Program-made: the position numbers and the translations under genes | Shown here: in pieces, positions 53,484 through 63,697 of the stretch | Numbering within the stretch: the stretch's first letter is position 1 | Layout of the letters: each line of letters opens with the position of its first letter | Assembly: GCF_003610295.1 (NCBI RefSeq) | Contig: NZ_RAPV01000001.1 | Location: forward strand, 2,108,001-2,172,000 | Direction: 5' to 3' | From: Paraburkholderia sp. BL23I1N1 | GTDB lineage: Bacteria; Pseudomonadota; Gammaproteobacteria; Burkholderiales; Burkholderiaceae | Length of the DNA: 64,000 bases | Notes under the pieces: generated by a model | What the model was told of the DNA's origin: nothing | The model's database searches: none | Seen by the model: the letters and a program-made list of their open reading frames with translations, nothing else

Positions 53484-55706
53484 GTGAGCAATCAAATCTC
53501 TCCACACATGGCCGGTCCGATCAAGACCGAAGAAGAGGACGTCGTCCTCGGGCAACTGGTGCAGGTGATCCTCGACGACATCTGGTGGCTGATCTCGATC
53601 GCCGCCGTGATCGTCGCACTGGCCGCCGCGTACTGTTTCCTCGCCAAGCCGATCTATTCGGCCGATGCGCACGTGCGGGTCGAGCAGTCCGACAACACCT
53701 CGCAGGCGCTCACGCAAACGCAGACGGGCGCGGCGATTACCACCGGCTCGACGTCGCTGCCGACTGACGCCGAAATCGAAATCATCAAAAGCCGCGGCGT
53801 AGTCGGCCCGGTGGTCCAGCAACTGAAGCTGAACTTCAGCGTCGTGCCGAAGACGTTCCCGCTGCTCGGCAGCATCGCCGCGCACATGGCCACGCCGGGC
53901 CAGCCGGCGCGGCCGTGGCTGGGTCTGTCGTCCTACGCCTGGGGCGGTGAAGATGCCGAGGTCGATTCGATCGACGTGGTGCCCGCGCTGGAAGGCGAAA
54001 AGCTCACGATGAAGGTGCAGGATGACCAGCACTACGAACTGTACGCAAAGAACGGTTCGCTGCTGCTGCGCGGCCAGGTCGGCCAGCAGGAGCAGGGCGG
54101 CGGCGTGACGATTCTCGTCAGCAAGCTGGTGGCGCGCCCGGGTGAAGAGTTCACCGTGACGCGGTTTAACGACCTTGACGCGATCACCGCGTTCCAGTCG
54201 GCCATCACCGTGCAGGAGCAGGGCAAGCAAACCGGCGTGATCCAGATCTCGCTGGAAGACAAGAGCCCTGAGCACGCCGCGCTGGTGGCCAATGCGCTCG
54301 CGCAGTCGTATGTGCGTCAGCACGTGTCGAACAAGCAGGTCGACGCAAGCAAGATGCTCGACTTCCTGAAGAGCGAAGAGCCGCGCCTGAAGTCCGATCT
54401 CGAACGCGCCGAAGCCGCGTTGACCGCGTATCAGCGCCAGTCCGGCTCGATCAACGCGAGCGACGAAGCCAAGGTCTACCTCGAAGGCAGCGTGCAGTAC
54501 GAGCAGCAGATCGCCGGTTTGCGTCTGCAGATGGCGCAGTTGACCGAGCGTTATGGCGACGACCATCCGATGCTCGTGGCCGCGCGCCAGCAGATGGCCG
54601 AACTGGAGGCGCAACGCGCCAAATACGCCGACCGCTTCCGCGATCTGCCGGCCACTGAAGTGAAGGCCGTGCAGTTGCAACGCGACGCGAAGGTGGCGGA
54701 AGACATCTACGTGCTGCTGCTCAACCGCGTGCAGGAGTTGTCGGTGCAGAAGGCCGGTACCGGCGGCAACGTGCATATCGTCGACCAGGCGATGCGCCCG
54801 GGTGCGCCGGTCAAGCCGAAGAAGGTGCTGATCCTCTCGGCGGCCGTGATTCTGGGGCTGATCTGCGGCACCGGTTTCGTGTTCCTGCGCCGCAATATGT
54901 TCAAGGGAATCGACGACCCCGACCATATCGAGCGTGCGTTCCATCTGCCGGTGTACGGTCTCGTGCCCTTGAGCGCCGAACAGGCCGTGCTCGAAAGCGC
55001 CTTCCAGCGCGGCGGCGAACGCCTGCGCTCGGTGCTCGCGAATGCGCGGCCGAAGGACGTCACGATCGAAAGCCTGCGCAGCCTGCGCACGTCCATGCAG
55101 TTCACGATGTTGGACGCGAAGAACCGCATCGTCATGCTGACCGGTCCCATGGCCGGCGTCGGCAAGAGCTTCCTGACGGTCAATCTGGCGGTGCTGCTCG
55201 CGAACTCGGGCAAACGCGTGCTAATGATCGACGGCGATATGCGTCGCGGTGTGCTGGAACGCTATGTGGGCGGTGCGCAGGACAACGGTTTGTCGGAATT
55301 GCTGAGCGGGCAGATCTCGCTCGAAGAAGCGATCCGCAGCACGAACGTCGAAAGCCTGAGCTTCATCTCGTGCGGCCGCCGCCCGCCGAATCCGTCGGAA
55401 CTGCTGATGTCGCCGCGTCTGCCGCAATACCTCGACGGCCTCGCCAAGCGCTACGACGTGATCCTGATCGACACGCCGCCGGTACTGGCCGTGACCGATG
55501 CGTCGATCATCGGCGCGTATGCCGGTTCGACCTTCTTCGTGATGCGCTCGGGCGTGCACAACGAAAGCGAAATCGCGGAGGCGTTGAAGCGTCTGCGCGC
55601 AGCCGGCGTGCACGTGCAGGGCGGCATTTTCAACGGGATGCCGGCGCGTTCGCGCGGCGGTTATGCCCGCGGCTATGCAGCGGTCCAGGAATATCTGAGC
55701 GCCTGA
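53484..55706 (+). CDS. bceF: BY-kinase / polysaccharide co-polymerase
   Basis: A 740-residue Wzc-type bacterial tyrosine kinase. Wzz-like N-domain with one membrane helix (IWWLISIAAVIVALAAAYCFL), a long periplasmic coiled part, and a second helix (VLILSAAVILGLICGTGFVF). The cytoplasmic kinase has Walker A GPMAGVGKSFLTVNLA near residue 560, Walker A' LMIDGDMRRG and Walker B VILIDTPPVL. The tail GGYARGYAAVQEYLSA has three Tyr, fewer than in many homologues. It works with BceE and is dephosphorylated by BceD. Start is GTG 53484, or ATG 53508. Confidence 0.94.
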   Translation: MSNQISPHMAGPIKTEEEDVVLGQLVQVILDDIWWLISIAAVIVALAAAYCFLAKPIYSADAHVRVEQSDNTSQALTQTQTGAAITTGSTSLPTDAEIEIIKSRGVVGPVVQQLKLNFSVVPKTFPLLGSIAAHMATPGQPARPWLGLSSYAWGGEDAEVDSIDVVPALEGEKLTMKVQDDQHYELYAKNGSLLLRGQVGQQEQGGGVTILVSKLVARPGEEFTVTRFNDLDAITAFQSAITVQEQGKQTGVIQISLEDKSPEHAALVANALAQSYVRQHVSNKQVDASKMLDFLKSEEPRLKSDLERAEAALTAYQRQSGSINASDEAKVYLEGSVQYEQQIAGLRLQMAQLTERYGDDHPMLVAARQQMAELEAQRAKYADRFRDLPATEVKAVQLQRDAKVAEDIYVLLLNRVQELSVQKAGTGGNVHIVDQAMRPGAPVKPKKVLILSAAVILGLICGTGFVFLRRNMFKGIDDPDHIERAFHLPVYGLVPLSAEQAVLESAFQRGGERLRSVLANARPKDVTIESLRSLRTSMQFTMLDAKNRIVMLTGPMAGVGKSFLTVNLAVLLANSGKRVLMIDGDMRRGVLERYVGGAQDNGLSELLSGQISLEEAIRSTNVESLSFISCGRRPPNPSELLMSPRLPQYLDGLAKRYDVILIDTPPVLAVTDASIIGAYAGSTFFVMRSGVHNESEIAEALKRLRAAGVHVQGGIFNGMPARSRGGYARGYAAVQEYLSA

Positions 55707-55765
55707 GCCACCCGGCTTGAGCCCATTCCGAACCCAGCGCAAACCCGATAAACAAGGACATCACG

Positions 55766-56698
55766 ATGAAAGTGACGGTACTGGTTCCAACTTACCGCCG
55801 CCCGGCCGACCTGGCGCGCTGCCTCGCGGCGCTGCAACGGCAGTCGCGCGCGCCGGACGAAGTGGTGGTGGTCGCGCGCGCCGACGACGAAGCAACCCAC
55901 ACCTGCCTGCGCGATCCGGCCGTACCGGGCAGCTTGCCCTTGTTCGTCGCGCTGGTGGAGGTGCCCGGCCAGGTCGCGGCCCTGAATCGCGGACTGGATG
56001 CTGCGACAGGCGCCGTGATCGCGATCACCGACGACGACGCCGCGCCGCACGTGGACTGGGTCGAACGGATTGCCGCCGCGTTCGAAAGCGATGCGCGCCT
56101 GGGTGCGCTGGGCGGACGCGACTGGGTACATGAAAAAGGCCGCGTGCTCGACGGAGAACGGCCGCTGGTCGGCAAGGTCACGGCGCACGGCAAGATCATC
56201 GGCAATCACCATCTTGGGGTCGGTGGCGCACGCGAAGTCGACATCCTGAAGGGCGCCAACATGAGCTACCGGCGCGAGGCGGTCCGCACGATCCGCTTCG
56301 ATCAGCGTCTGCGCGGCGCGGGCGCCCAGGTCCACAACGACATGGCCTTCAGCCTCGCCGTGAAGAACGCCGGCTGGAAGCTGATGTACGACCCGCGCGT
56401 CGCCGTCGACCATTTCCCGGCCGAACGTTTCGACGACGATCGGCGCGACGCGCAAACCATGGCGGCGTTGCGCAATGCCGCCTTCAATTTCCACCTGATC
56501 CTGCGCGACCAGTTGCCGCCACTGCGCCGCGAAACCGCGTGGTGGTGGTGGACGCTGGTCGGCACTCGTGTCTATCCGGGTCTCACGCACGCCGCGCTCG
56601 CGCTGGTTTCGAAACAGGCGAGCCTGAGGCTGTCGCGCTGGCGCGCGGTGCGCACCGGTGCGCATGAGGCGCGCCGCGCGCTGTCTCGAACAGCCTAA
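55766..56698 (+). CDS. bceG: Family 2 glycosyltransferase
   Basis: A 310-residue GT-A enzyme. The first strand is VTVLVPTYRRPADLARCLAAL, the DXD-type metal site is ITDDDAAPHVDW, and NMSYRREAVRTI and GWKLMYDPRVAVDHFP follow. It adds one sugar to the lipid-linked repeat unit on the cytoplasmic side. The order after bceF matches the cepacian cluster. The exact donor is not readable. Confidence 0.9.
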   Translation: MKVTVLVPTYRRPADLARCLAALQRQSRAPDEVVVVARADDEATHTCLRDPAVPGSLPLFVALVEVPGQVAALNRGLDAATGAVIAITDDDAAPHVDWVERIAAAFESDARLGALGGRDWVHEKGRVLDGERPLVGKVTAHGKIIGNHHLGVGGAREVDILKGANMSYRREAVRTIRFDQRLRGAGAQVHNDMAFSLAVKNAGWKLMYDPRVAVDHFPAERFDDDRRDAQTMAALRNAAFNFHLILRDQLPPLRRETAWWWWTLVGTRVYPGLTHAALALVSKQASLRLSRWRAVRTGAHEARRALSRTA

Positions 56699-56817
56699 TG
56701 CCGCGCGACCCTGTGTAACCCCGCGTTGACCCAATCGTCCTGCACGTTCGTGCATCGGCACTCGCGCCTGCTGGCGCATACCGATGCTCCTTTTCACCGG
56801 CAGAGCGGAGTGTCTGC

Positions 56818-58107
56818 ATGAGTACGAAAGTTCACGTTCATCTGTTTTACGGCGCCGACCCGCGCTTTTACCGGCCGGGCGACAACATCGGCTGTCTGTA
56901 CGGCTATCACCATGCCGAATCCGACGCGTTCAGGCTGACCTATTCGCAGGACGCGCGCGAAAGCAAGCCGGTGCGTTTGCTGCGCCGCGCGCTGAAGGCG
57001 GCGCTTGGCTTCGACTTCATTCATACGTGGCGCAACCGCGCCGAGATGCTGCGCTCGGACGTGATCTGGACGCATACCGAGCAGGAATGGCTGTCCGCCG
57101 CGCTGATGCTGCTGCTGAGCGGCCGCAAGGCGGGTGGTGACGCGGAACCCTTACTGCTCGCGCAAAGCGTGTGGCTGCTCGATAAATGGCCTTCCTATGG
57201 AATTCTGCGCAGCTGGCTGTATCGCAAGCTGATGAAGCGAGCCGACCAGCTCACGACGCTCGCGAGCGAAAACGCTGAAATGTGCCAGGAGTATTTCGGG
57301 CGCGATGCCAAGCCGCTCTTCTACGGCTTGAACACACAAGACTTTCCCGTGAAGGCGCCAACCGAATGGAAGCCGCATTCGCCGATCCGGATTGCCGCGA
57401 TCGGCAACGATCGCGACCGCGATTGGGAAACGCTTATCAAGGCCTTCGGCAACGACGCGCGCTACACGGTGAAGCTCGCGACGCGCCGGCGGATTCCCGC
57501 TTCGCTGCGTGCGCCGAACGTCGAGATCGCGTTGTTCTCGGGCATCAAGAAACAGCACGAACTCTACGACTGGGCCGACGTGATCGTGGTGCCGCTGCGT
57601 CCGAATTCGCACGCCTCGGGCATTACGGTGATGCTGGAAGCGGCTGCGGTCGGCAAGCCCATGGTGGTCACCAACGTCGGCGCGTTGCAGGATTATTTTC
57701 CGGCGGACGAGGCGGCTTATATCCCGCCGTTCGACCCGCAGGCGTTGCGCGAGGCGGTGGACCAGCTCGCCGCCTCTCCGATGGAGGCATTGCATCAGGC
57801 GCAGGCAGCGGCGGCCGGTTTGCTGTCGCGCGACCTGACCACGCAGAACTATGCGATGCAGCACGTGAAGGTCACGCAGGAGATGTTGCGGGCGCGCGCC
57901 GCGTCGCGTGGACGTGTGCCGGCAGGCGCGGCCGAGGCCGGCGCCGACGTCAAGGCAGCGGCAGCGGCGCAGCGCGCCGCGCCGGCCGCCACCACCGTGA
58001 GGCAGCCGGTGCGAATTCGCGCGGGCAGTCACGCGCAGGTGCAGGGGCAAGCTCGCGGTCACGGCCAGAGCCAGGGTCCTTCGCGCCAATCACGCGGAGG
58101 CCTCTAA
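56818..58107 (+). CDS. bceH: GT-B glycosyltransferase
   Basis: A 429-residue glycosyltransferase with a GT-B layout: FYGADPRFYRPGDNIGCLYG at the start, IRIAAIGNDRDRDWETLIKAF at the donor side, and HASGITVMLEAAAVGKPMVVTN as the EX7E-like block. The last 75 residues are an unusual Ala/Gln/Gly/Arg-rich tail (AQVQGQARGHGQSQG), probably disordered and not part of the catalytic fold. It follows bceG by 119 bp, the widest gap among bceG-K. Confidence 0.88.
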   Translation: MSTKVHVHLFYGADPRFYRPGDNIGCLYGYHHAESDAFRLTYSQDARESKPVRLLRRALKAALGFDFIHTWRNRAEMLRSDVIWTHTEQEWLSAALMLLLSGRKAGGDAEPLLLAQSVWLLDKWPSYGILRSWLYRKLMKRADQLTTLASENAEMCQEYFGRDAKPLFYGLNTQDFPVKAPTEWKPHSPIRIAAIGNDRDRDWETLIKAFGNDARYTVKLATRRRIPASLRAPNVEIALFSGIKKQHELYDWADVIVVPLRPNSHASGITVMLEAAAVGKPMVVTNVGALQDYFPADEAAYIPPFDPQALREAVDQLAASPMEALHQAQAAAAGLLSRDLTTQNYAMQHVKVTQEMLRARAASRGRVPAGAAEAGADVKAAAAAQRAAPAATTVRQPVRIRAGSHAQVQGQARGHGQSQGPSRQSRGGL

Positions 58108-58110
58108 ACG

Positions 58111-59574
58111 ATGTCGACGATTGCGCGAGCCGGCGACGACAACGCGGGGCGGGTGCTGTCCGGCGCTCGCAAGGAGTGGCTGCCGGAGGCTTTACTGTGG
58201 CTGATCACGGCAATGCTGATCGTCGCGCATCAGGGCACGGTGCTCACGCTCGCATTCCCGGTGCTCGCGATCCTGACGGGCCTGTGGCTCTACTTCAAGA
58301 GCCCGGCGCGCTACATCGGCTTCATGTGGTGGCTATGGTTCCTGAGCCCGGAAGTGCGGCGTCTCGCCGACTGGTCCAAAGGCTCGTTCACGCCGACCAG
58401 CCTGATCCAGGTCGCGCCGCTCGCCGTGACGATGATCAGCGCGTTGTCCCTGCTCCGGTACTACAAGCTGCTGTCGCAACGCCGCGGGCTGCCGGTGCTG
58501 CTGGTTCTGTTGGGGCTCGCCTATGCCTTCATGATCGGCGTGATGTCGAGCGGTCCGCTCGCCGCGACCTATGACCTCGCGAACTGGCTCTATCCGATCC
58601 TGATCGGCTTTCACATCATGGCGCACACGCATCAGTACCCGAAGTATCGCGACACCATTGTCAGTACCTTCATCTGGGGCATGCTGGTGATGGGCGGCTA
58701 CGGTCTGATCCAGTTCTTCATCATGCCGCCGTGGGACGCGCTGTGGATGCTCGGCTCGCAGATGAATTCGCAAGGCGACCCCGTGCCGATGGGCGTGCGC
58801 GTGTTCAGCACGATGAACTCGTCGGGACCGTTCGCGTTCGCGATGATGGGCGCGATGGTCTACGTGATGGCAGCGACGCACCGCGTGCGCTGGATCGCGG
58901 CGGCGCTCGGCTTCTTTTCGTTCGCGCTGAGCCTCGTGCGTTCGACGTGGGGCGGCTGGGTGATCGCGCTCCTGATCCAGCTGGTCAAGGCGAACAACAA
59001 GGTGCGCGTGCGGATCGTCGCGAGTGCGGTGCTGCTTGCCGGTCTTTGCGTGCCGCTGCTCACGGTCGGCCCGGTCGCCGAGCGGATGCAGGCGCGCCTG
59101 AACACGCTCGTCAACCTGAGCGACGACCAGAGCTACGCCGCGCGTAACGAGTTCTACGCGACCTTCGCGAAGACAGCCTTTACCGATGTCTCCGGCGAAG
59201 GCATGGGCGCGACCGGCACCTCGACCAAGCTCTCGAACGACGGCGGTCAGCTCGGCCAGTACGGCAACTTCGACAGCGGCGTGATGAACATCCCGTTCGT
59301 GCTCGGCTGGCCCGGCACCTTGCTCTATATGTCCGGCATCGTGTGGCTGGTGGTGCGCGCGGCGCTCGCGTCGTTCAAGCTGCGCAACGACAAATTCGTG
59401 TCCGCCTGCCTGAGCCTCAGCCTCGCGACTTTCGCCATGCTCGTGTTTACCAATTCGCTGGTCGGCACGGGCGGCCTGCTGCTTTTCATGAGTGTTTTTT
59501 CGATCCTTTCCGCGGTGCACTACGACAAGATGAACCGCAGACGCACGCTATTTCTCCACGGAGGCACTGATTGA
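58111..59574 (+). CDS. bceI: Polysaccharide polymerase (Wzy/O-antigen-ligase-like)
   Basis: A 487-residue integral membrane protein with about 10-12 hydrophobic helices (ALLWLITAMLIVAHQGTVLT, FAFAMMGAMVYVMAATHRVRW, VRIVASAVLLAGLCVPLLTV) and a large polar loop near residues 330-390 (LNTLVNLSDDQSYAARNEFY), as in Wzy and WaaL proteins. It should join repeat units in the periplasm. It starts 3 bp after bceH and overlaps bceJ by 4 bp. Confidence 0.9.
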   Translation: MSTIARAGDDNAGRVLSGARKEWLPEALLWLITAMLIVAHQGTVLTLAFPVLAILTGLWLYFKSPARYIGFMWWLWFLSPEVRRLADWSKGSFTPTSLIQVAPLAVTMISALSLLRYYKLLSQRRGLPVLLVLLGLAYAFMIGVMSSGPLAATYDLANWLYPILIGFHIMAHTHQYPKYRDTIVSTFIWGMLVMGGYGLIQFFIMPPWDALWMLGSQMNSQGDPVPMGVRVFSTMNSSGPFAFAMMGAMVYVMAATHRVRWIAAALGFFSFALSLVRSTWGGWVIALLIQLVKANNKVRVRIVASAVLLAGLCVPLLTVGPVAERMQARLNTLVNLSDDQSYAARNEFYATFAKTAFTDVSGEGMGATGTSTKLSNDGGQLGQYGNFDSGVMNIPFVLGWPGTLLYMSGIVWLVVRAALASFKLRNDKFVSACLSLSLATFAMLVFTNSLVGTGGLLLFMSVFSILSAVHYDKMNRRRTLFLHGGTD

Positions 59575-60830
59575 GAGTCGCCATTGTCACGCACGTCGTG
59601 CGCCATAACGACGGCCAGGGGCGCGTCAACCACGAGATTGCGCGCGCCGCCCTCGATGAGAACATTGCGGTCACCCTGGTTGCCTCGCACGTTGCGCCGG
59701 ATTTGCTCGCGCATCCGGACGTACGCTGGGCGCCGATAAAAATCGGCCGCTGGTGGCCCACCAATCTGCTGCGCCAGCAGGTGTTCGCCTTCAAGAGCGC
59801 GATGTGGCTGCGTGCGCATCGCCGCGAATACGACGTGTTGCACGTGAATGGTTTCATCACGTGGATGCCCGCCGACGTCAACACCTCGCACTTCGTGCAT
59901 AGCGGCTGGTTTGGCAGCAAGTATTACCCGTTCGGACTCACGAAAGGCGTGTGGTCCGCGTACCAGTCGATCTATACGCGCTGCAACGCCGTGCTCGAAC
60001 GCTGGGCGTACCGTCGCTCGAAAGTGATCACGGCGGTGTCGCAAAAGATCGCCGATGAAATTCGCGCGATCGGTTTGACGCCTCACAACCGGGTCGACGT
60101 GATTTACAACGGCGTCGATACGCAAGGCTTCGCGGCCGCAACGGGCGACCGCGCGAAATTTGGCCTACCGGCGGACGCATTCCTGCTGCTGTTCGTGGGC
60201 GACCTGCGCACACCGCGCAAAAACCTCGGCACGGTGCTGGCCGCGCTCAAGCATCTGCCCGAACACGTGCAGATCGCGGTGGCCGGTTTTCTGCCAGGCA
60301 GCCCGTATCCGGAACAGGCGAAAGCGCTCGGCATTGCGCATCGCGTGCATTTTCTCGGGTTGGTCAAGGAGATGCCGGTGCTGATGCATTCGGTCGACGC
60401 GTTCGTGTTTCCGTCGCGTTACGAGGCGATGAGCCTGTCGCTGCTCGAAGCGATGGCCGCGGGCCTGCCGGTGGTCACGGCGCGGACGGCGGGCGGCGCC
60501 GAAATCATCACGCCGGAATGCGGCATCGTGCTCGACGATCCGGACGATCCCAAGGCCTTGGCAGGCGCCGTCGCGCGCCTGGCCGACAACGACGACGCGC
60601 GCCGCGCTATGGGCGCCGCTGCCAACGAGCTTGCGACCGGCTTCGGCTGGGCGCGGATGGCCGCGCAATACATCGCGCTGTACCGGCAACTGGAAGGGCA
60701 GCAGAAGGACCGCCTGCGCAGCGAAACGGAAGCCGCGGCGGTGGCGAGGAACGACGCGCTGACGCTGAACACGCTCGCCGGGCAAACCATTCACCACCAC
60801 ACTCAGAACGCACAGGGGCAACAATCATGA
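59571..60830 (+). CDS. bceJ: Family 4 glycosyltransferase
   Basis: A 419-residue GT-B enzyme. It most likely starts with TTG 59571 (residues RVAIVTHVVRHNDGQGRVNH), since GGAGG lies 6 bp upstream and the upstream gene ends in the same four bases. Donor motifs are LLLFVGDLRTPRKNLGTVL and FVFPSRYEAMSLSLLEAMAAGLPVV (EX7E). It adds a sugar of the repeat unit. A polar tail rich in His and Gln (TIHHHTQNAQGQQ) ends the protein. Confidence 0.92.
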   Translation: MRVAIVTHVVRHNDGQGRVNHEIARAALDENIAVTLVASHVAPDLLAHPDVRWAPIKIGRWWPTNLLRQQVFAFKSAMWLRAHRREYDVLHVNGFITWMPADVNTSHFVHSGWFGSKYYPFGLTKGVWSAYQSIYTRCNAVLERWAYRRSKVITAVSQKIADEIRAIGLTPHNRVDVIYNGVDTQGFAAATGDRAKFGLPADAFLLLFVGDLRTPRKNLGTVLAALKHLPEHVQIAVAGFLPGSPYPEQAKALGIAHRVHFLGLVKEMPVLMHSVDAFVFPSRYEAMSLSLLEAMAAGLPVVTARTAGGAEIITPECGIVLDDPDDPKALAGAVARLADNDDARRAMGAAANELATGFGWARMAAQYIALYRQLEGQQKDRLRSETEAAAVARNDALTLNTLAGQTIHHHTQNAQGQQS

Positions 60831-61993
60831 GCACGAGTTCAATCAAATCGCTGCAGATCGGGATGCACTGGTTTCCTGAGCGCGCGGGCGGCCTCGACCG
60901 CATGTATTACTCGCTGGTTGGTGCGCTGCCGGGTGCGGGCGTTGCCGTGCGCGGCGTGGTGGCCGGCTCGCCCAAAGTCGCCGCGGACACGGGCGGCGCG
61001 ATCAACGGTTTCGGCTCCGCCGCACAATCGCTGCCGCTGCGGCTGATGGCGGCACGCCGCGCGCTGCGCCAGGAGATCGGCACCTCGCGTCCGGACGTGA
61101 TTTCGTCGCACTTCGCGCTGTACACGTTTCCGGGTCTCGACGTGACGCGCGGCATTCCGCAGGTGTCGCATTTTCAGGGACCGTGGGCCGACGAGAGTCA
61201 CGTCGAAGGCGCCGATTCGTTCGGTCAGCGCGCCAAGCGCTATCTGGAGCAATCGGTGTATGCGCGCTCGTCGCGTCTGATCGTGTTGTCGGAGGCGTTC
61301 GGCAAGATTCTGACTTCGCGCTATCGCATCTCGCCGGAGCGCGTGCGCGTCGTGCCGGGCTGCGTGGATGTCGAGCAGTTCAATCTGCCGATCACGCCGG
61401 CCGAGGCGCGCCTGAAGCTGCAACTGCCGCAGGACCGGCCGATCGTGCTGGCCGTGCGGCGTCTGGTGCGCCGCATGGGTCTCGAAGATCTGATCGATGC
61501 GGTGAAGCTGCTCAAGCGCACCGAACCCGATGTGCTGCTGCTGATCGCGGGCAAGGGGCGGCTCGAAGGCGAATTGCAGGCGCGTATCACTGAGGCTGGG
61601 CTCGAGAACAACGTCAAGCTGCTGGGCTTCGTGCCCGATCAGCATCTGGCGGCGTTGTACCGGGCGGCGAATATCAGCGTGGTGCCGACGGTGGCGTTGG
61701 AGGGTTTCGGGCTGATTACCGTTGAATCGCTGGCTTCGGGCACGCCCGTGCTGGTGACGCCGGTCGGCGGCTTACCGGAAGCGGTGGCGGGTTTGTCGCC
61801 AGATCTGGTGTTGCCGGAGACGGGCGCGAAGGCGATCGCGGCGGGTCTGGCAGGCGCGTTGAATGGCTCGCTAAAGTTGCCGGATGCCGAGGCTTGCCGA
61901 CGTTATGCACGCGAGAAGTTCGATAACTCGGTGATCGCAAAGCGGGTGGCGTCGGTGTATAGCGAGGCGATCAAGGCGGGTGGGGTGCATTGA
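60827..61993 (+). CDS. bceK: Family 4 glycosyltransferase
   Basis: A 388-residue GT-B enzyme starting at ATG 60827, overlapping the bceJ stop (ATGA). It opens IGMHWFPERAGGLDRMYYSL, with VLAVRRLVRRMGLEDLIDAV on the donor side and EGFGLITVESLASGTPVLVTP as the EX7E block. It is the last gene of the bce-I order and faces the Fic gene, with 21 bp between their stops. Confidence 0.93.
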   Translation: MSTSSIKSLQIGMHWFPERAGGLDRMYYSLVGALPGAGVAVRGVVAGSPKVAADTGGAINGFGSAAQSLPLRLMAARRALRQEIGTSRPDVISSHFALYTFPGLDVTRGIPQVSHFQGPWADESHVEGADSFGQRAKRYLEQSVYARSSRLIVLSEAFGKILTSRYRISPERVRVVPGCVDVEQFNLPITPAEARLKLQLPQDRPIVLAVRRLVRRMGLEDLIDAVKLLKRTEPDVLLLIAGKGRLEGELQARITEAGLENNVKLLGFVPDQHLAALYRAANISVVPTVALEGFGLITVESLASGTPVLVTPVGGLPEAVAGLSPDLVLPETGAKAIAAGLAGALNGSLKLPDAEACRRYAREKFDNSVIAKRVASVYSEAIKAGGVH

Positions 61994-62014: not shown

Positions 62015-63517
62015 TCAGGTGGCACGACTGCCGTCGGCATTGAGAAGCCGGAACTCGGCAGAAGACTCTTCGAATGCGTGAGCGCTTCTCATGCTGGCTA
62101 TGAGGCTTGCAACGTCGGCGTAATCGAATCCAGCGGACCAGGTGGCCATTCGCGACAAGGCGGTGATCAGTGGTTCCGGGCGCCCACTTTGCGTAAGGGC
62201 TCGCAAACAATCCACGAACTGCGGGTGGAAAAGCGTTGGGATGATGATTCGACAGCGTTCCCTGCGGGACAACTCCGCGTTCATGACCAGTCTGGACAGA
62301 CGTCCATTGCCGTCCGCGAAGGGATGGACCTCCGCGACGAGGAAGAGATAGTAGATTGCCCGTGCCATACCTTCAGGAATTGACAGCGCGAGGCGCGATC
62401 CTTCGGCAAGGGTTCCGCGAACGTGGGATGGCTGGACAAATTGGGTCGTGCCCGCGTAGTTTGCCTCGAGCTTGAGGTTGCCAGGGTCGACCTCCGGTCT
62501 GCGTTCAAGCATGATTCGATGGCGTTCCTGAAGCACATCGACAAAATCTTGCCCGGCGGGTGGCACCATTGCCCGGGTATCGCTCCGATACGCGAGATTG
62601 AACACGCCGAGGATGTCATGCGAATCCTTGGGGCGTTGCGCGACAATCTGGTTACGCAGCACGATGCCTTCGGCTTCCTCCACGGAGAACCGGGTGCCCT
62701 CGACGTAGTTGGAAAAATACGATTCGAGAAAGGCGAAATGGATACGGCTGTTGCCTTGATCGGCTATGTCGGCGATATCCGGCAGTACCGTCGTGCGTAG
62801 CGCCGTGGCGAGCGAATCGAAAAGACGCATGCGCTCCATGTCGATGGGGGTGCCCTGGGCGATGGCCAACCCCGCCTTCGTTTTGAGAACGCCCTTTGAA
62901 TGCGTGCTCAACAGCGCACCGATCAAACTGTTGAGTACGTCGTAACTGGTTTGCGCGCCGAGCGGTTCGACGAGTTCGCGAGCACGATCGCGAATCAGGT
63001 TGAGTCCCGCCTCCTTGCTCGCGTTAAGGCTGGTAATCAGGCGTTCTTCGATGTCATCGCGCGCAGCCCGGGTCGTGGCTGCAGCTCGACCGAGATTTTC
63101 GAGAAGCGCACGTTCTTGCGATGCCCAGTAAAGGTCGAGCGAACCAAGACGCAGGTCGCGAGGCTGCGGACCGGGGCCTTTCAGCAGCACCAGGGTAAGG
63201 CCCGGATAACGAATGCGCCGGTTGAATCGTGTTGGATGAGACAGCACGACTTCATCGGACGGCGTGATGCCGCCCGTCAATGCGCTGCGATGGGAGACAA
63301 CGGCGCCAGGCACCGCATGTGCGGCGATTTTCTGCCAGCTTCGCCTGATTCGGCCAGCGACTTCCTCGTCGGTGCCCGGCTGGACGTACACGCCAGGAGC
63401 GACGCGTTTCAGATGGCCGTCTTTCGCGCGGCGCTGAAGGCCTCGGTCGAACTTCGGATCGCCGTCCGCAAACAGGATGTCGTCCGAAAGTCGTTTTTCC
63501 GCTAAAGAGAGGGGCAT
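62015..63517 (-). CDS. Fic-domain protein with AbiEi-like N-terminal region
   Basis: A 500-residue fusion. Residues 1-145 resemble AbiEi-type antitoxins: a winged-helix start (FDRGLQRRAKDGHLKRVAPG, VYVQPGT) followed by VVSHRSALTGGI and the ERALLENL helix. The C-terminal half is a Fic domain with the complete motif HPFADGNGRLSRL at 398-410, so AMP or another nucleotide could be transferred to a target. An inhibitory helix of the S/TxxxEG type (SNYVEG, 269-274) lies before it, as in class II Fic proteins. The antitoxin-like part probably gives DNA binding and autoregulation. There is no partner gene. The GC content is a little lower than its neighbours. It separates bceK from gmd, so it looks inserted. 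Confidence 0.85.
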   Translation of the reverse strand: MPLSLAEKRLSDDILFADGDPKFDRGLQRRAKDGHLKRVAPGVYVQPGTDEEVAGRIRRSWQKIAAHAVPGAVVSHRSALTGGITPSDEVVLSHPTRFNRRIRYPGLTLVLLKGPGPQPRDLRLGSLDLYWASQERALLENLGRAAATTRAARDDIEERLITSLNASKEAGLNLIRDRARELVEPLGAQTSYDVLNSLIGALLSTHSKGVLKTKAGLAIAQGTPIDMERMRLFDSLATALRTTVLPDIADIADQGNSRIHFAFLESYFSNYVEGTRFSVEEAEGIVLRNQIVAQRPKDSHDILGVFNLAYRSDTRAMVPPAGQDFVDVLQERHRIMLERRPEVDPGNLKLEANYAGTTQFVQPSHVRGTLAEGSRLALSIPEGMARAIYYLFLVAEVHPFADGNGRLSRLVMNAELSRRERCRIIIPTLFHPQFVDCLRALTQSGRPEPLITALSRMATWSAGFDYADVASLIASMRSAHAFEESSAEFRLLNADGSRAT

Positions 63518-63697
63518 GTCGGCGCCAGAATGTCGCTATCGAGCTTGGATTGTACCTTTTTTGTCGTTTTTCAGCTAAGTTCGCTGTGAGGCGTTGGCGA
63601 GCGGATTTGTCGCTAACGCGCTAAGTTTGCAGCGGAAAATTTGAAATTTGTCGCAATTCAGCTAAGTGCGCCGATAGATTGTCGTTTTTCAGCTTAA
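63488..63697. repeat. Five direct repeats at the Fic promoter
   Basis: Copies of TTGTCGTTTTTCAGCTAA (or close variants) start at 63561, 63607, 63648 and 63679. A degenerate copy at 63488-63505 lies inside the Fic gene, in the codons for residues 5-10 (LAEKRL). Conserved positions are TTGTCG and GCTAA, 7 bp apart; the copy at 63679 has one extra T. Spacing between starts is 46, 41 and 31 bp. They occupy the only promoter gap of the Fic gene, so they are likely operators. Confidence 0.8.

Follow-up and report, generated by a model that had tools for sequence, protein, structure and literature searches.

A class II Fic protein with an AbiEi-like head and a putative phased direct-repeat operator at its own gene

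The closest described relatives in design of the gene considered here are autorepressors of two kinds. In the first, CccR of Yersinia pseudotuberculosis, a single class II Fic chain both binds its own promoter and represses it; the protein is secreted by a type VI secretion system (PMC9755527). AbiEi is likewise an autorepressor (PMC7319586, PMC3985639), and for Streptococcus agalactiae AbiEi and Mycobacterium tuberculosis Rv2827c the operators are 23-bp inverted repeats overlapping the promoters (PMC3985639, PMC7319586). A third protein, CbFic2 of Coxiella burnetii, is a Fic enzyme whose activity is changed by DNA (PMC10628234). The present gene occupies 62015..63517 on the minus strand of a 64,000-nucleotide stretch of the Paraburkholderia sp. 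BL23I1N1 genome (the window), was identified from the open reading frame (ORF) list and by its relatives, and encodes a 500-residue protein in which an AbiEi-like head precedes a Fic domain. We consider it likely, from the sequence patterns described below, that the head represses its own gene through an array of phased, same-strand repeats. The array did not figure in the original prediction for this DNA and was found on follow-up.

The array consists of six same-strand repeats upstream of the gene and extending into it, with the consensus TTAGC-N7-CGACA, grouped as two triplets with successive steps of 31, 41, 46, 31 and 42 bp. All are on the minus strand. The distal triplet comprises putative operator repeats 1 (63680..63696), 2 (63649..63665, 31 bp from repeat 1) and 3 (63608..63624, 41 bp from repeat 2). 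The proximal triplet begins with repeat 4 (63562..63578), 46 bp from repeat 3, and continues with repeat 5 (63531..63547), 31 bp from repeat 4; these five were located by matrix and pattern scans. Repeat 6 (63489..63505), located by matrix scan, lies 42 bp from repeat 5 and within the reading frame at codons 5–10. Between repeats 4 and 5 is a –10-like box, TACAAT (63549..63554, minus strand), assigned by its match to TATAAT. A scan for consensus sigma-70 sequences at the gene gave no full promoter, and a terminator-like site was likewise not found there. Within the genome of the same strain, the spaced pair matches exactly at two places and the strict single motif at three (vs 2 for the control), all of them at this gene. 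When up to two mismatches were allowed, the pair pattern gave 21 matches, 2 of them here, vs 16 for a reversed control, so that the other 19 look like background. A wider regulon was rejected as an interpretation, as no exact pair was found at a second place anywhere in the genome.

The same-strand repeat emerged from an alignment of the sequence upstream of the gene in a near set of 39 of 46 loci, which includes the window locus and contains close pairs such as L007/L008; L043, L044, L046, L049, L050, L051 and L052 were left out because the N-terminal part was missing or no match was found. At a threshold of 7 bits, the matrix built from the 39 loci finds 156 sites, vs a mean of 1.65 (maximum 5) in 20 shuffles, and the opposite strand gives a single site. 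At 6 bits and over a longer stretch there are 198 sense sites, distributed over all 39 loci, and 8 antisense sites. A matrix trained on seven Paraburkholderia loci recovers 79 sites in the 32 other loci (shuffle mean 0.5), with at least one site in 29 of these and at least two in 23. The 31-bp step is present in 36/39 loci, the window locus included (6 bits), and the full 31 + 41/42 triplet in 27/39; two or more triplets occur in 16/39, and L047 has three. The triplet appears to be the unit of the array, as successive triplets are separated by anything from 33 to 66 bp.

The spacer of the most downstream 31-bp pair contains a 5- or 6-of-6 match to TATAAT in 19 of 35 loci (TATAAT itself in L013, L023 and L029) and a weaker match in the other 16, although these spacers are AT-rich and the counts are given without a chance control. 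Repeat copies inside the gene fall in one reading frame in 21 of 23 cases, and the structural model has low confidence for the part of the protein encoded at repeat 6. The codons used at repeat 6 (CGA in 21/21) were discarded as evidence; the argument is circular, because the sites were selected for CGAC. By eye, residue 28 of the protein appears to go with the base before GAC (Gln or Glu with C, Ser or His with T, Arg with G); L069 breaks this pairing, which is a lead only.

The spacing extends to relatives in which the sequence of the near-set repeat is hardly recognizable. A distant set was assembled from 16 loci with 31–39% identity, after L065, L073, L075, L076, L078, L080 and L086 had been dropped as copies or fragments of the same genes; some kinship persists within it (L066/L074; L081/L083/L084). 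The near-set motif has no site in 14 of these 16 loci and one stray site each in L074 and L085. Self-similarity of the upstream DNA nevertheless peaks at lag 31 (summed z of 39.6), followed by lag 41 (21.4) and a next best value of 6.7, and 31 + 41 is the best of 240 triple combinations. The maxima at any lag were 15.2 in 200 shuffle sets and 17.9 in 200 sets drawn from other windows of the same loci. When L083 and L084 are removed, lag 31 still scores 35.2.

Because the 31-bp spacing had first been noticed in part of the distant set, a separate set of loci was used. It comprises 14 non-redundant loci, including Bacteroidota and Alphaproteobacteria, from 22 plasmid and viral loci considered (13 of 20 plasmid matches and the nine viral loci, of 66 listed, with long matches); six near-copies, L092 (too short) and L097 (a local match from residue 98) were excluded. 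Lag 31 again ranks first (27.9), ahead of lags 41 (13.9), 32 (12.5) and 30 (10.1). The highest values in 500 shuffle sets are 16.7 over all lags and 12.0 at lag 31, so lag 31 stands out in this set and lag 41 on its own does not. Individual loci include real misses: lag 31 comes first, ties included, in 11/16 distant and 9/14 separate-set loci, and the Bacteroides locus L161 favours lag 32. The sequence of the putative repeat thus varies with the protein, whereas the spacing persists: roughly three helical turns, joined in many loci by a step of roughly four.

The protein combines a probably DNA-binding head with a conserved Fic enzyme core. The Fic domain (PF02661, codons 328–415, 62273..62536, minus strand; Pfam match) scores 39.4 bits against a curated cut-off of 24. 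Its Fic motif, HPFADGNGRLSR, assigned by alignment to codons 398–409 (62291..62326, minus strand), fits HxFx(D/E)GNGRxxR, and the motif residues are invariant in 54/54 aligned proteins; the original prediction had placed an intact motif at 398–410. The inhibitory S/TxxxEG helix proposed at 269–274 is borne out as SNYVEG (62696..62713, minus strand), which fits (S/T)xxxE(G/N), precedes the Fic core within one chain, as in class II proteins, and has its Ser, Glu and Gly invariant in all 54 proteins. It lines up with the inhibitory motif of human FICD and Caenorhabditis elegans FIC-1. Those proteins differ in being eukaryotic, and they carry tetratricopeptide repeat domains where the head sits here. 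The Fic half alone (about residues 264–445) matches the PADLOC profiles SoFic (E = 1.9e-7) and PDC-S04 (E = 3.2e-11). No C-terminal helix–turn–helix (HTH) was found after the Fic core: fold alignments reach about residue 468–471 in most top matches, and Pfam shows nothing in the ~30 residues that remain.

The head was predicted as a separate structure because fold searches with the whole model gave Fic relatives among the 50 matches listed. The structure prediction and profile searches proposed with the original prediction agree with its assignment, in that AbiEi is the closest fold and profile match of the head (approximately residues 21–145), at scores below curated cut-offs (19.1 bits vs 150 for NCBIfam NF047376; 11.7 vs 25 for Pfam DUF6088). 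A helix and wing at codons 21–45 (63383..63457, minus strand) form the predicted DNA-reading part, based on the model and on a profile match to AbiEi/DUF6088, although the winged helix is incomplete in the predicted structure. Codons 50–145 (63083..63370, minus strand) resemble, by fold and profile comparison, the AbiEi C-terminal domain with its nucleotidyltransferase-like fold. A profile of the head had zero matches among PDB sequences and matched only 14 proteins of 82–258 residues, the length limits of that search excluding the full-length family.

Compared with the described systems, the predicted arrangement is distinct in both its DNA-binding part and its operator. CccR, with an N-terminal inhibitory motif (SARIEG) corresponding to SNYVEG here, is described as having a C-terminal HTH (residues 276–380) and an operator of two inverted 10-bp repeats 26 bp apart (PMC9755527), whereas the present protein has an N-terminal AbiEi-like head and direct repeats in triplets. 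The predicted resemblance to AbiEi includes the helix-and-wing part, the nucleotidyltransferase-like domain and the presence of several sites overlapping a promoter. However, AbiEi pairs with AbiEii, and the accessible descriptions give it 23-bp inverted-repeat operators, in contrast to a fused Fic domain, no adjacent AbiEii gene and same-strand repeats at 31- and 41/42-bp steps. CbFic2 is also a class II Fic enzyme that binds DNA, as is predicted here, but it has a DeoR-type C-terminal HTH and a host histone target, and no operator array was met in the portion of the report available (PMC10628234). The direct-repeat geometry thus suggests an AbiEi-like DNA reader organized unlike the reported AbiEi operators with which it was compared. 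The half-sites published for abiE do share a register with the repeat matrix (–1.8 bits for IR1 and 5.8 for IR2, both below the site thresholds), and base shuffles reach these scores in 50/5,000 and 3/5,000 cases, respectively, a hint of a shared half-site. Inverted repeats matching at 11 of 11 positions lie upstream of the AbiEi/DUF6088 gene elsewhere in this genome and of a Hymenobacter DUF6088 gene, a count from two genes without a chance control.

The case for the head as an autorepressor rests on the conservation of the array spacing while the repeat sequence changes; the AbiEi-likeness of the head adds support, AbiEi being a known autorepressor, and CccR provides a precedent for a self-repressing class II Fic protein. 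The steps of 31 and 41/42 bp correspond to roughly three and four helical turns, and we envisage several molecules lined up head to tail along the same face of the DNA. Once bound, they would lie over the –10 region and the beginning of the gene and hold expression low, and the inhibitory helix would keep the Fic site of each molecule closed. If repression or the inhibitory contact were lost, the enzyme could modify a host protein. Our guess is that the gene is a single-gene, toxin-like module for stress or phage response. In a more specific and rather doubtful version, the operator itself would be the antitoxin: six closed, inactive molecules would be stored along the phased triplets of their own promoter region, and their clearance from the DNA, for example when a phage takes over transcription, would both switch on the gene and free active enzyme.

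Other readings of the array and the head can be weighed against self-repression. The head might read the array chiefly to activate the gene or to let DNA switch the enzyme, the latter with a precedent in CbFic2, where DNA binding stimulates activity and switches it between AMPylation and deAMPylation (PMC10628234); the distal triplet, upstream of the –10-like box, is also in a possible activator position. Copies 4–6, however, lie over the –10 region and the gene start, the usual place for a repressor, and both AbiEi and CccR are described as repressors (PMC7319586, PMC9755527), which makes this reading unlikely. That a different host DNA-binding protein reads the repeats, the head having another task such as binding the Fic target, would accord with the incomplete winged helix of the model. 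It is improbable, given that the strict motif occurs in this genome only at this gene and that the repeat sequence shifts with the protein at constant spacing in hosts of different phyla, a pattern in keeping with a gene that encodes its own reader. Self-inhibition of class II Fic proteins could be taken to mean that the protein is catalytically inert and acts as a DNA-binding regulator only, an idea compatible with self-repression; the invariance of the Fic motif residues in the aligned proteins argues against it, and we give it little credence.

The similarity of the head to AbiEi, together with the AbiEii genes present elsewhere in this genome, could also point to a relative of type IV toxin–antitoxin systems whose head neutralizes an AbiEii-type toxin encoded elsewhere. 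This is very improbable: each AbiEii match found lies either on contig C2 or on C1 at a distance of more than 680 kb, none near the gene, and a survey of neighbours, also proposed with the original prediction, found no family besides the Fic gene common to more than 6 of 44 loci (the window locus plus 43 that are 5 kb or longer). On the same grounds a type IV pair was rejected as a description of the gene. With no widely shared neighbour and no AbiEii nearby, the gene appears solitary rather than half of a pair, and looks like a unit without a conserved partner. The proposal that Fic stands in place of AbiEii is therefore not supported. That of operon repression survives in part: self-repression through the repeat array is predicted, but the operon is not supported, as the gene has no conserved partner and its neighbours vary between genera.

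In other respects the protein looks ordinary: a Fic protein predicted to inhibit itself, with a domain that probably binds DNA, from a family with many relatives. What appears new, as far as sequence comparison goes, is an AbiEi-like head combined with a putative phased direct-repeat operator that enters the gene and keeps its spacing as its sequence changes. No paper on the AbiEi-like/Fic fusion or its array was found among the entries listed from an open-licence library, a scope that most subscription papers fall outside. The original remark that no characterized protein was known with this design thus stands for the fusion within that scope, but not for a self-repressing class II Fic protein, which CccR already is. 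The family itself is large, and yet undescribed in the same literature: 3,275 relatives were found at E ≤ 1e-3 among 7,995 candidates scored, the best 120 of them with 54–100% identity over 74–100% of the query. Their source names include ‘Fic family protein’, ‘hypothetical protein’ and ‘Uncharacterized conserved protein’; the UniRef name of one relative (P0013) begins ‘Transcriptional regulator, AbiEi antit’, so the head has already been recognized there by automatic annotation. As many as a few thousand database entries, for the most part unnamed or vaguely labelled, may carry their own repressor, and an operator spacing, rather than sequence, that is kept across phyla offers a handle on function.

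The gene has relatives in at least two phyla and is present as one copy in its own genome. Named species genomes supplied 45 loci, many of them from Betaproteobacteria. In whole-genome samples the gene is sporadic (9/369 genomes for the class, 5/398 for the phylum and 7/399 for the order at E ≤ 1e-20, each count taking in the own genome). Twenty plasmid records of Pseudomonadota and Bacteroidota carry it, 19 with coverage of at least 80%, and IMG/VR contributes at least nine long matches among the 66 viral-contig loci listed, five of the nine being near-copies. Assignment as a phage gene was rejected, with 0 matches in 50,697 annotated phage records. Matches in L049, L050 and L051 (two genomes of Paraburkholderia and one of Alcaligenaceae) were limited to fragments of the gene, suggesting repeated loss. 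One relative, in L086 (genome G820), has its C-terminal half (251–496) within an open frame reported as 10,937 residues.

In the window the gene lies within an exopolysaccharide-type cluster (53484..61993; also L007, 6820..14169), on the strand opposite to the cluster ORFs downstream of it; translations of these ORFs read as glycosyltransferase-, GDP-mannose dehydratase- and acyltransferase-like. Neighbour families were defined by simple ORF calling, and some ORFs may be spurious. Those shared by five or six loci are exopolysaccharide-type ORFs from one Paraburkholderia synteny group, with the exception of a transporter-like family that lies within 5.5 kb of the Fic gene in five loci (L016, L022, L025, L026 and L050). 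We take this family to resemble the ATPase of a molybdate-type ABC transporter, and the five loci possibly reflect a shared insertion site.

Genes of related types occur near some of the relatives and elsewhere in the genome. A DUF6088 (AbiEi-like) gene is found a short distance from the Fic gene on plasmids of Hymenobacter (L159, 2061..2786) and Bacteroides (L161, 1386..1988), and HipA-domain genes are found near it on plasmids of Variovorax (L157) and Sphingorhabdus (L167). Contig C2 of the own genome carries an AbiEi/DUF6088–AbiEii pair (L087, 590..2397) with inverted repeats upstream and an ORF downstream that we read as transposase-like. Two more Fic-domain genes of genome G000, C2:1443242 and C3:425808, each lie close to the end of their contig. 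An identical 46-base stretch lies ~1–1.5 kb from each of them, suggesting a duplicated region.
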